Both the position numbers and the translations under genes were made by a program. Shown one piece after another: positions 20,689 through 39,818 of a stretch of 41,991 nt of DNA. Origin of the DNA: Natronolimnobius baerhuensis (GTDB lineage Archaea; Halobacteriota; Halobacteria; Halobacteriales; Natrialbaceae); NCBI RefSeq assembly GCF_002177135.1, contig NZ_MWPH01000006.1:69955-111945 (forward strand). Reading direction: 5' to 3'. Numbering within the stretch: position 1 is the stretch's first letter; each line of letters begins with the position of its first letter. Below the pieces are notes generated by a model. The model saw nothing but the letters and a program-made list of their open reading frames with translations, had not been told where the DNA came from and did no database searches.

Positions 20689-21225
20689 GTGCGTATCGAG
20701 ACCCCAACCATCGATCTCGATCCGCAACAGCGGATCCTCGAGCGAGAGCACCGACAGATAACTGCAGAACGACGTGCGTTTGAACGGTTCTCGAGTCGAA
20801 TCGTCGATCTGGAGGTCAGGCCAGTCCACCATGTTGCTGGGTCGTCCGGCTCCGTTGGGACAGTTCGACGCGTCACCGAGACGACGCAGGCTGGTCTTCG
20901 CGAGGTGCAACAGGCCTACACTGAAACCGTGATGAGCGTCTCTCATTACGATGATGTCTACGCTGAGTCGTGGGACGAACACATGGCCGAAGAGTTAAGC
21001 GAAGAACTGGCAGTGGCGATCCGGACGGCGACGCAGTTCGATCCACGGCTCCAGCAGTCGATTGTTGACGCGACGGCACAAGCTGTAACGCGACGAACCA
21101 ATCTGCTCGAGCCGATCAACGCCGAGCAGGCCGCACTCGAGGATGTTCGGCGATTGATCACAGAAATGCAAGGAGGAAGCCCACGACTTCAGTCGTGGGT
21201 TACTGACTTGCGATCTATGTGTTAA
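20689..21225 (+). CDS. DUF7260-like haloarchaeal protein, C-terminus replaced by an IS end
   Basis: The 178-residue frame begins with GTG and reads ITAERRAFERFSSRIVDLEV, then LREVQQAYTETVMSVSHYDD and MAEELSEELAVAIRTATQF. These are features of the haloarchaeal DUF7260 family, helical proteins of unknown role often near mobile DNA. The natural family sequence continues to about EDVRRLITEM. From 21158 the DNA equals a 42-bp IS200/IS605 right-end repeat also found at 39774, so the last 20 or so residues (QGGSPRLQSWV onward) are encoded by IS-derived DNA and end at a chance TAA. It is therefore a slightly truncated fusion, possibly still functional. Confidence 0.65.
   Translation: MRIETPTIDLDPQQRILEREHRQITAERRAFERFSSRIVDLEVRPVHHVAGSSGSVGTVRRVTETTQAGLREVQQAYTETVMSVSHYDDVYAESWDEHMAEELSEELAVAIRTATQFDPRLQQSIVDATAQAVTRRTNLLEPINAEQAALEDVRRLITEMQGGSPRLQSWVTDLRSMC
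21158..21199 (+). repeat. IS200/IS605 right-end repeat (42 bp), copy 1
   Basis: Identical over 42 bases to 39774-39815. It ends in a perfect hairpin: CCCACGAC (21180-21187), loop TTCA, GTCGTGGG (21192-21199). This is the terminal hairpin typical of haloarchaeal tnpB elements. No tnpB remains here. Confidence 0.8.
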
Positions 21226-30097: not shown

Positions 30098-30151
30098 CGT
30101 TACGTGAAACAGGCGCAAAGCCTCGCCCCTTTAGGCGCGGGAGGATGTCAA
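30098..30151 (+). repeat. Solo IS200/IS605 scar: left end fused to right end (54 bp)
   Basis: The first 31 bases equal the left end of the tnpA/tnpB element at 33551-33581. From 30121 onward the sequence equals that element's right end (35466-35494) apart from a base or two, ending GGAGGATGTCAA. The interior is gone, leaving one hairpin (CGCCCCTTTAGGCGCG) shared by both ends. Confidence 0.75.
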
Positions 30152-33471: not shown

Positions 33472-33593
33472 TGTGACCTTATAGAAGGGACAGAACTTCT
33501 TGAACGTATCGGGGATTGACGAACGACGAGTGCTAACGGTTGCGTCGCCCCGTTACGTGAAACAGGCGCAAAGCCTCGCCCTTCAGGGGCATG

Positions 33594-33637
33594 GCGAGAG
33601 CGAAGCTCTCGCTGCAACCGAAAAGCTCCGCTTTTCG
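33594..33637. repeat. Pair of short hairpins near the IS605 left end
   Basis: Hairpin 1: GCGAGAGC-GAA-GCTCTCGC (33594-33612 region). Hairpin 2: CGAAAAGC-TCC-GCTTTTCG (33619-33637). Each is a perfect 8-bp stem with a 3-base loop, separated by six bases. The solo left end at 30098 lacks them, so they look inserted. A similarly built pair is at 34082-34130. Confidence 0.7.
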
Positions 33638-33742
33638 AGGACGGGGATACGCGCCGTAATTCTCGTCAATCTTCCGCCGTCGAACGCACTGCTGGGGTTC
33701 TGTCGGTACGTTTAAGTAAAATCCCGACCATAGTATGCATAG

Positions 33743-34168
33743 ATGGTGAAGAGCACTCGTCACGCGAAATACGAACTCTACTACCACATAGTATTCATCC
33801 CGAAGTACCGGGAGCCGCGTCTGACGGGCGCAACCAAAGAACGTCTCAAAACCATCTTCGTGGAGATATGCGACGACAAAGACCTTGAACTTGTAGAGGC
33901 CGAAATCATGCCTGACCACGTTCACCTGTTCGTGGGAAGCCCGCCGCGCAACGAACCGTCGTTGCTCGTCAATTGGCTCAAAGGCATCTCCGCGCGGTAC
34001 TACAATCAGCGATACGACGACCGTATCAAATGGACACGCTCGTACTACGTCGGAACGGCGGGTAGTGTCTCGAAGGACGTTCACAAGAGCAACGCTCTTG
34101 TGGGCCAATCAGAAGCCGATGGCTTCTGATAACGCCGTAGAACAGTATATCCGCGAGCAACACAACGC

Positions 34169-34172
<4 letters not shown>
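33743..34172 (+). pseudogene. tnpA: IS200/IS605 transposase TnpA (Y1 HUH), inactivated by a 55-bp insertion
   Basis: TnpA catalyses single-strand excision and insertion. The frame shows the family start ([17 protein letters not shown]), the HUH pair H59-V-H61 in DHVHLFV and the closing [16 protein letters not shown]. There the frame meets a 55-bp insertion (34079-34133) and stops at 34127-34129. Skipping the insertion restores [12 protein letters not shown] and a stop overlapping the tnpB ATG (ATGA at 34169-34172). The tail supplies the catalytic Tyr, so the truncated 128-residue product should be inactive. The insertion is not a multiple of three and carries an in-frame stop. Confidence 0.85.
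34079..34133. repeat. 55-bp insertion in tnpA made of two short hairpins
   Basis: Hairpin 1: CACAAGAGC-AAC-GCTCTTGTG (34082-34102), 9-bp stem. Hairpin 2: ATCAGAAGCC-GAT-GGCTTCTGAT (34108-34130), 10-bp stem. Both perfect with 3-base loops, five bases apart. The stem tips share AGC-NNN-GCT or AGCC-NNN-GGCT with the left-end pair at 33594-33637, although the stems otherwise differ. Confidence 0.8.
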
Positions 34173-35490
<1,318 letters not shown>

Positions 35491-35494
<4 letters not shown>

Positions 35495-39721: not shown

Positions 39722-39818
39722 GAGCCCCCGCCCTCAAGGAGCCAGCCTCTGCTGGCGAGTAGGCTGGAGTAGTTCACAGAAATGCAAGGAGGAAGCCCAC
39801 GACTTCAGTCGTGGGAGG
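39722..39818 (+). ncRNA. Orphan tnpB 3' end with omega-RNA-like hairpins
   Basis: The segment has a GCCAGC-CTCT-GCTGGC hairpin (39741-39756), a linker, and a terminal hairpin CCCACGAC-TTCA-GTCGTGGG (39796-39815) followed by AGG. The layout matches the conserved 3' end of haloarchaeal tnpB elements, where the guide RNA is made. No tnpB gene is present: the preceding 39570-39721 shows no TnpB protein sequence. The last 42 bases are identical to 21158-21199. If transcribed, the guide would come from the bases after 39818, upstream of the MazE-type gene. Confidence 0.5.

Follow-up and report, generated by a model that had tools for sequence, protein, structure and literature searches.

Within the window, a stretch of 41,991 nucleotides from the haloarchaeon Natronolimnobius baerhuensis, one element of the IS200/IS605 type carries two pairs of closely spaced hairpins, one pair in its left end and one in its transposase gene tnpA. 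Do these hairpins belong to the insertion sequence (IS), did they arise in place, or did they come in as elements of their own? Our data favour the last of these, and the two window pairs probably go back to two separate insertions of mobile, non-autonomous double-hairpin elements (DHEs). The ends of the IS, read from the sequence, and the Pfam domains of its two open reading frames, Y1_Tnp in tnpA as well as OrfB_IS605 and Cas12f1-like_TNB in tnpB, give the following arrangement (strand stated where one applies):

33557..35494, plus strand: IS200/IS605 element, host of both inserts, with its TTAC target at 33553-33556 and TCAA as its right end
33589..33641: insert 1, 53 nt, in the left-end palindrome; empty site in L039 and L010
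33594..33612: hairpin 1a, stem of 8 bp, loop GAA
33619..33637: hairpin 1b, stem of 8 bp, loop TCC (reverse complement GGA)
33743..34129, plus strand: tnpA (Y1_Tnp) frame, truncated within insert 2; Pfam, intact homologue in L010
34078..34132: insert 2, 55 nt, in tnpA, frameshifting; empty sites in L010 and L011
34082..34102: hairpin 2a, stem of 9 bp, loop AAC
34108..34130: hairpin 2b, stem of 10 bp (ATCAGAAGCC/GGCTTCTGAT), loop GAT
34133..34172, plus strand: displaced 3' end of tnpA with the motif QYIREQ and the catalytic tyrosine, aligned with Y127 of ISHp608 TnpA (PDB 2A6M)
34169..35443, plus strand: tnpB (OrfB_IS605 / Cas12f1-like TNB); Pfam
30104..30151, plus strand: fusion of the left and right IS ends, 48 nt (52 with TTAC), terminal-only and free of DHEs, with TTAC before it and TCAA at its end

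All four stems, of 8-10 bp, are perfect, all loops measure 3 nt, and the spacer between the hairpins is 6 nt in pair 1 and 5 nt in pair 2. Using a third-order Markov model, 0.25 such pairs are expected per window at stems of at least 7 bp and 0.05 at stems of at least 8 bp; apart from pairs 1 and 2, no double hairpin with stems of at least 7 bp occurs in the 42 kb. The two perfect double hairpins noticed in an earlier, sequence-only reading of this DNA thus stand out from chance.

To find empty sites, the flanks of each pair were joined and searched among the collected loci. Pair 1 is absent from the IS copies of Natronorubrum texcoconense (L039, 97% TnpA identity) and of genome G040 (L010, 95% DNA identity), where the left end runs uninterrupted as CAGGG^CGGGG (GCCCTTCAGGG^CGGGGATACGCGCC). 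Pair 2 is absent from L010 and from L011 (G184), in which tnpA is uninterrupted. Hairpins that were part of the IS itself should be found at both sites in all of its close relatives, and this is not what we observed. The same reading had pointed to a solo left end at 30098 as a copy that lacks the pair. The pair is indeed lacking there, but this stretch is the left-end/right-end fusion at 30104-30151 and hence not a clean empty left end, which makes it a weak control; the true empty sites come from the relatives.

While the borders of insert 1 are unambiguous, three to four neighbouring placements are equivalent for insert 2. Since 55 is not a multiple of three, the tnpA frame is shifted and its last residues are lost, including the tyrosine that aligns with the catalytic Y127 of ISHp608 TnpA. 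The window copy is unable to encode a working TnpA; one DHE disrupts the left-end palindrome and the other inactivates tnpA. The TnpA of L010 is naturally intact, and its C-terminal end differs from that of the window frame. In the window copy tnpB is free of DHEs, whereas the tnpB genes of relatives carry them. A second tnpA of the window genome (G000:C2:91733-92116) has a frame-keeping DHE of 54 nt (91967-92008).

A comparison of occupied with empty sites, as the sequence-only reading had proposed, allowed us to define borders and target. Automated calls were dropped as unreliable if their identity was under about 0.8 or their borders disagreed (e.g. L035, L206_1501, L255 and L302_1397), and in the 19 curated sites that were kept the inserts measure 50-60 nt and no target duplication is found. 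The right junction is A|C in 16 of the 19 sites and in all nine with unambiguous borders (chance about 2e-11). Read inward, the 18 unambiguous ends share GNYG|TCGTY, with T+1 in 17, G-1 in 16 and G-4 in 14 of them. Since this consensus is found at both ends, the target is loosely palindromic, GNYG^CRNC, although for five of these nine sites the empty relative is only 80-87% identical, so that single consensus bases may shift and small junction changes could hide.

The hairpins themselves are of very uniform build. Among 142 distinct pairs, 259 of 284 hairpins (91%) have a loop of 3 nt, compared with 32% of control hairpins from random stretches. Stems measure 7-11 bp, with 8-9 bp in 209 and CG or GC as the outermost two bases in 157 of the 284, and the distance from tip to tip is 25 nt in 70 pairs. 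Of 53 distinct hairpins, where those with related stems were counted at full weight, 98% are closed by a C-G pair with C on the 5' arm (48% of the controls, p=4e-13) and 60% have GNA or the complementary TNC as their loop (14% of the controls, p=1e-10); purines prevail in the 5' arm (79% versus 51% in the controls). Hence, the AGC-NNN-GCT tip that had been put forward as the shared feature does not define these elements; what hardly varies across the hairpins is the C-NNN-G closing pair, together with GNA/TNC loops. The tip motif AGCNNNGCT, used twice as a search pattern, was dropped with a single real pair in the whole genome.

Mini-hairpins with C-GNA-G triloops are exceptionally stable in DNA. 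It is therefore conceivable that nuclease-resistant, single-stranded hairpin fragments were captured as filler DNA at double-strand breaks without the help of any enzyme, and no dedicated transposase is evident. The constant ends and the target context imply a site-specific enzyme, however, and we consider capture at breaks unlikely.

That DHEs are mobile elements, as the sequence-only reading had suspected, is our firmest conclusion, and we hold it with high confidence. In addition to the empty sites and the conserved ends, we found that insert 1 is identical in 53 of 53 positions to the left-end insert of L013 (G098); the two IS copies are only about 80% alike, and the nearest relatives of both backgrounds are empty. 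Three different DHEs are found, in different lineages, at the left-end palindrome, which is a hotspot of insertion. Nested copies are found twice within DHE spacers in L072 (Natrialba hulunbeirensis), and there are more in L300/L301. As a separate observation, a recurring sequence context 'gaacttttgcgctgtcgtt' / 'cggcaaaatct..ttagctttgatgaaaagcactcctcc' carries DHEs in L300 (1200-1480), L301 (1170-1361), L276 (1500-1640) and L280 (1499-1547).

IS605 relatives from Halobacteria contain dozens of pairs, in the left end, in tnpA and in tnpB. Four families can be defined by the spacer and the flanks, while the stems differ within each of them (hp, hairpin):

Family I: GTCGTT-hp-TGATGA/TGATCA-hp-AACCAC/AACGAC
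Family II: CTGA-hp-GAGGTCC-hp-TTGA
Family III: TCCTCAGAA..-TGGGCTG-..-ACGTC
Family IV: GTCC-CCAGAA..-TGTGCGA-ACGA..-CAACG

The spacers found in DHEs are TGATCA/TGATGA, TGGGCTG, TGTGCGA, GAGGTCC and TGCAAC. Pair 2 of the window is a member of family III, and its right half, GGGCCAATCAGAAGCC-NNN-GGCTTCTGAT, recurs in tnpB of two other genomes (G390 and G349). As CTGCCAATCAG.., with two mismatches, this half-element is also present in G014 and G057, where dnaK has it at its 3' end. Control matches to it numbered 0 in 392 genomes.

Host genes were also found to be occupied. In Natrialba hulunbeirensis, a tryptophan synthase beta-like (TrpB-like, PALP family) gene contains a 60-nt family III DHE that keeps the frame, and most of the matches listed from 98 Natrialbaceae genomes span both sides of this site without an insert; in one further genome (G474) an insert appears to occupy this site as well. 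A similar TrpB-like gene in G134 (L344) carries a 60-nt and a 51-nt DHE, the latter introducing a stop. Judged by open frames and not by annotation, the length is divisible by three in 12 of 13 coding inserts (p=2e-5), and ten leave the frame open. The other three are the insert in the window tnpA, which shifts the frame, the one in the L072 tnpB (3224) and the 51-nt insert of L344, both of which bring in a stop. DHEs thus explain in-frame insertions of 17-20 residues in TnpB and in the TrpB-like protein.

For Haloquadratum, the idea has been proposed that small mobile repeats of the SMR-A type serve as a weapon against IS605 (PMC3119063). DHEs might likewise be used by the host to inactivate IS605, which concerns their function and not their mobility. 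The strong link to near-terminal IS605 palindromes and to transposase genes, and a window tnpA without its catalytic tyrosine, would be in agreement with such a role. However, inserts that keep the frame in 12 of 13 cases, and are mostly read through, spare the gene, and host genes receive DHEs as well. We therefore assign a low probability to this function. As mobile elements that prey on IS605/TnpB transposons, DHEs also have to be kept in mind when the structure of a left end or of a guide RNA is deduced from sequence.

A view of the hairpins as parts of IS605, i.e. as a functional left-end or RNA structure that moves only with the IS, could draw on the left-end hotspot with its three DHEs, on a second IS605 family (G000, G010 and G011) in which many copies have DHEs at the left-end apex, and on a 51-nt DHE in tnpA that has been inherited through an entire IS lineage. 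Nevertheless, it is very unlikely, since the closest IS relatives are without both pairs, DHEs lie outside any IS in the TrpB-like gene and at dnaK, and the window copy destroys tnpA.

The 51-nt tnpA site also provided the compensatory stem changes for which a search had been suggested. In 12 loci of this lineage, nine of them distinct, 97.8% of the cells pair, compared with 25-51% in slid controls; two pairs are changed on both sides (eight cells), and the covariation score is higher than in all shuffles. Independent compensatory events are few, probably one or two. Moreover, loops occur in inverted form, as GTT in L205 versus AAC in L206 and as GAA/TTC elsewhere. Perfect stems, inverted loops and compensated stems would all fit template switching between the hairpin arms, and the sequence-only reading had named replication slippage as an alternative; but an origin of the palindromes in place, as mutations and not as elements, is the least probable explanation and already largely refuted, since it would not be expected to give fixed ends GNYG|TCGTY, a uniform tip distance, sequences shared between unrelated sites or a 53-mer that is identical in IS copies that have diverged. 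Slippage or template switching may still maintain the stems after insertion, and the inverted loops and compensated stems suggest that inserted hairpins are also repaired or copied from arm to arm. CRISPR and TIGR arrays were dropped as candidates because there are no guide arrays, and so were MITEs because there is neither a long inverted repeat nor a target duplication and the inverted ends are only about 5 nt long.

How might a DHE move? A DHE is a unit of 50-60 nt that consists of a TCGTY end, a hairpin, a spacer of 4-7 nt, a second hairpin and a RACGA end, with perfect stems of 7-11 bp and 3-nt loops closed by C-G; a family I element is the inverted pair TCGTT-hp-TGATCA-hp-AACGA. Insertion takes place between G and C of GNYG^CRNC without duplication of the target. 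Movement may proceed via single-stranded DNA, in which the hairpins could fold. A hairpin-binding enzyme of the HUH/REP-transposase type could then recognise them in trans, and a DHE would act like a REPIN or like an IS605 stripped to its left and right hairpin. The two feet that face inward, the paired hairpins, the precise ends, the absence of a duplication and IS605 palindromes as preferred targets resemble single-strand HUH transposition as in IS200/IS605 and REPIN/RAYT (PMC3116915); by this analogy such a mechanism is plausible, although we would put it at slightly less than an even chance.

A resident Y1_Tnp transposase as the mobiliser is not supported by the genome distribution. Y1_Tnp (PF01797) is present in 26 of 59 Halobacteriales genomes and absent from 33, and the number of DHEs does not track its presence (Mann-Whitney p=0.17). 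Thirteen genomes have at least 10 strand hits and no Y1_Tnp, which indicates that a resident TnpA is not needed now, that the copies are old, or that another enzyme is at work. Among these genomes, sampled as one per species, we saw no recent strain-level insertion and no excision intermediate. A similar puzzle has been described for Haloquadratum, where strains differ in IS605 without having an intact TnpA and the mobiliser of SMR-A is equally obscure (PMC3119063). Haloarchaea are genetically tractable hosts for finding the enzyme of DHEs.

Comparable elements have been described in other organisms. The sequence-only reading had called the element undescribed, which holds for the DHE family within the searchable literature: no paper joins haloarchaea with 'double hairpin', in a search that mostly covered literature outside subscription journals. 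It does not hold for the kind of element, since REP/REPIN, CGTC repeats, RPE and SMR-A are similar. The CGTC-tagged REP dimers CGTC-1 to -4, which include RPE-4/RPE-6 of Rickettsia and dRS3 of Neisseria (Di Nocera 2013, PMC3733652), share with DHEs the CGTC/TGTC at the hairpin foot with the feet outward, stems of about 8-9 bp, a mostly head-to-head dimeric form, in-frame copies within genes and the lack of an associated transposase gene. Among these in-frame copies, RPE-4/RPE-6 are those that the in-frame DHEs resemble (PMC3733652). An unpaired CGTC (TGTC) beside the stem is found in DHEs as the YG|TC consensus of the 18 unambiguous ends; there, YG|TC straddles the junction, and the empty sites reveal that its YG part comes from the target. 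Hence, exact empty sites fix the ends and the target of DHEs, a point that was left open for the CGTC repeats (PMC3733652). In contrast, CGTC-REPs have loops of 4-5 nt, A-T at the first and second stem position and a CCA tail, whereas DHEs have C-GNA-G loops of 3 nt, C-G/G-C as outermost pairs and spacers without a general CCA. Moreover, DHEs are archaeal and concentrated in IS605.

REPINs, which are moved by RAYTs (PMC3116915), are likewise mobile as an inverted pair of short palindromes, as seen in DHEs of family I (TCGTT...AACGA, spacer TGATCA), and both show compensatory changes and a link to IS200/IS605. The REPIN palindrome is highly conserved and genome-specific, whereas DHE stems vary widely, and a REPIN pair can fold as a single long hairpin and lies near a RAYT gene (PMC3116915). 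REPINs also go with a genome-resident RAYT (Y1 HUH), while PF01797 is absent from 33 of 59 genomes in our set.

SMR-A, i.e. the small mobile repeats HqIRS42, 43 and 55 of Haloquadratum walsbyi (PMC3119063), resemble DHEs in having no coding capacity, no target duplication and an unexplained mobilisation, and in inserting preferentially into near-terminal palindromes of IS605/PATE, as the three DHEs at the left-end site do. They are about 110 bp long with prominent terminal inverted repeats and more than 95% identity within a type, whereas DHEs measure 50-60 nt, have inverted ends of about 5 nt and consist of two internal hairpins; by its description SMR-A is thus set apart. PATEs resemble DHEs with about 52 bp, two palindromic ends of the IS605 type and no target duplication (PMC3119063). 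However, PATEs are bounded by IS605 ends and preceded by a TTAC-like target, and the ends and hairpins of DHEs are unlike those of the window IS (GNYG|C target and TCGTY ends versus TTAC|GTGAAAC..TCAA). In the window, the fusion at 30104-30151 is like the terminal-only PATEs, 52 bp long, that are described for Haloquadratum (PMC3119063).

Two hairpins that are inserted as a unit in genes or spacers, without a flanking duplication, are also described for mitochondrial double-hairpin elements of Allomyces (Paquin 2000, cited in PMC2800124) and for sponge RHEs; these belong to organelle DNA, are unrelated in sequence to haloarchaeal DHEs and were suggested to transpose via RNA (PMC2800124). By their anatomy and behaviour, DHEs work like CGTC-REP dimers, REPINs and RPEs, with a preference for IS605 as in SMR-A. 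Because of their 3-nt loops, the absence of A-T foot pairs, of a CCA tail and of a resident RAYT, and a length half that of SMR-A, we leave them unassigned to CGTC-REP, REPIN or SMR-A. Haloarchaea hereby gain a family of small mobile repeats that is comparable to bacterial REPINs and to the palindromic elements of Rickettsia. DHEs have no family match in Rfam.

To survey the distribution, a covariance model was built from 21 DHEs, with some spacers trimmed to 8 nt, and applied to overlapping collections of genomes. It matches 50 of 59 Halobacteriales genomes (E<=0.01) and none of 16 bacteria. Of 44 further archaea from the phylum, the 39 that lie outside family f24 have no hit. Within f24, three genomes of genus g117 have 47-81 strand hits each, and a fourth genome (G410) has one weak hit. 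About 16 DHE sites are found in the window genome; as the model misses pair 2 of the window, its counts are minima, and most sites were counted once per strand. Random chromosome has few pairs: three in 400 kb (0.33 expected), five in another 400 kb and none in 160 kb of the window genome. The pairs were therefore judged to be enriched in IS605 and not simply abundant throughout the genome. The Haloquadratum genome G401 also has DHEs. In viral contigs the right-hand stem of pair 2 has no exact match, and the four viral contigs that contain the hairpin 1b stem gave no DHE.

The g117 genomes (G428, G437 and G444; L347-L354) have a G+C content of about 41% and a mcrB gene. They contain dense arrays of AAAATC-GNA-GATTTT hairpins with tips as in DHEs, which are partly in frame in genes for a polyprenyl synthetase and an FMN-dependent enzyme. 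A more speculative view, which we offer tentatively and do not expect to hold in full, is that DHEs are ancient minimal hairpin transposons of the whole Halobacteriota, in halophiles as well as in this MCR-bearing family, which have C-GNA-G triloops and a GNYG^CRNC target, are moved by an enzyme other than the resident IS200-type transposase, live as parasites of IS605 palindromes and persist in frame in housekeeping proteins.

One hairpin pair was set apart as atypical because of its 10-nt spacer (L004 503-550, L053 405-454 and L221 1783-1829; ACGG..CCGT-tcgyayggyy-..). The L004 and L053 copies have no match in Rfam, and this pair is conserved across several genera. Finally, an identical hairpin, CCCACGACTTCAGTCGTGGG, occurs twice in the window, at 21180-21199 and 39796-39815, and is like the right-end hairpins of other IS605/TnpB elements.
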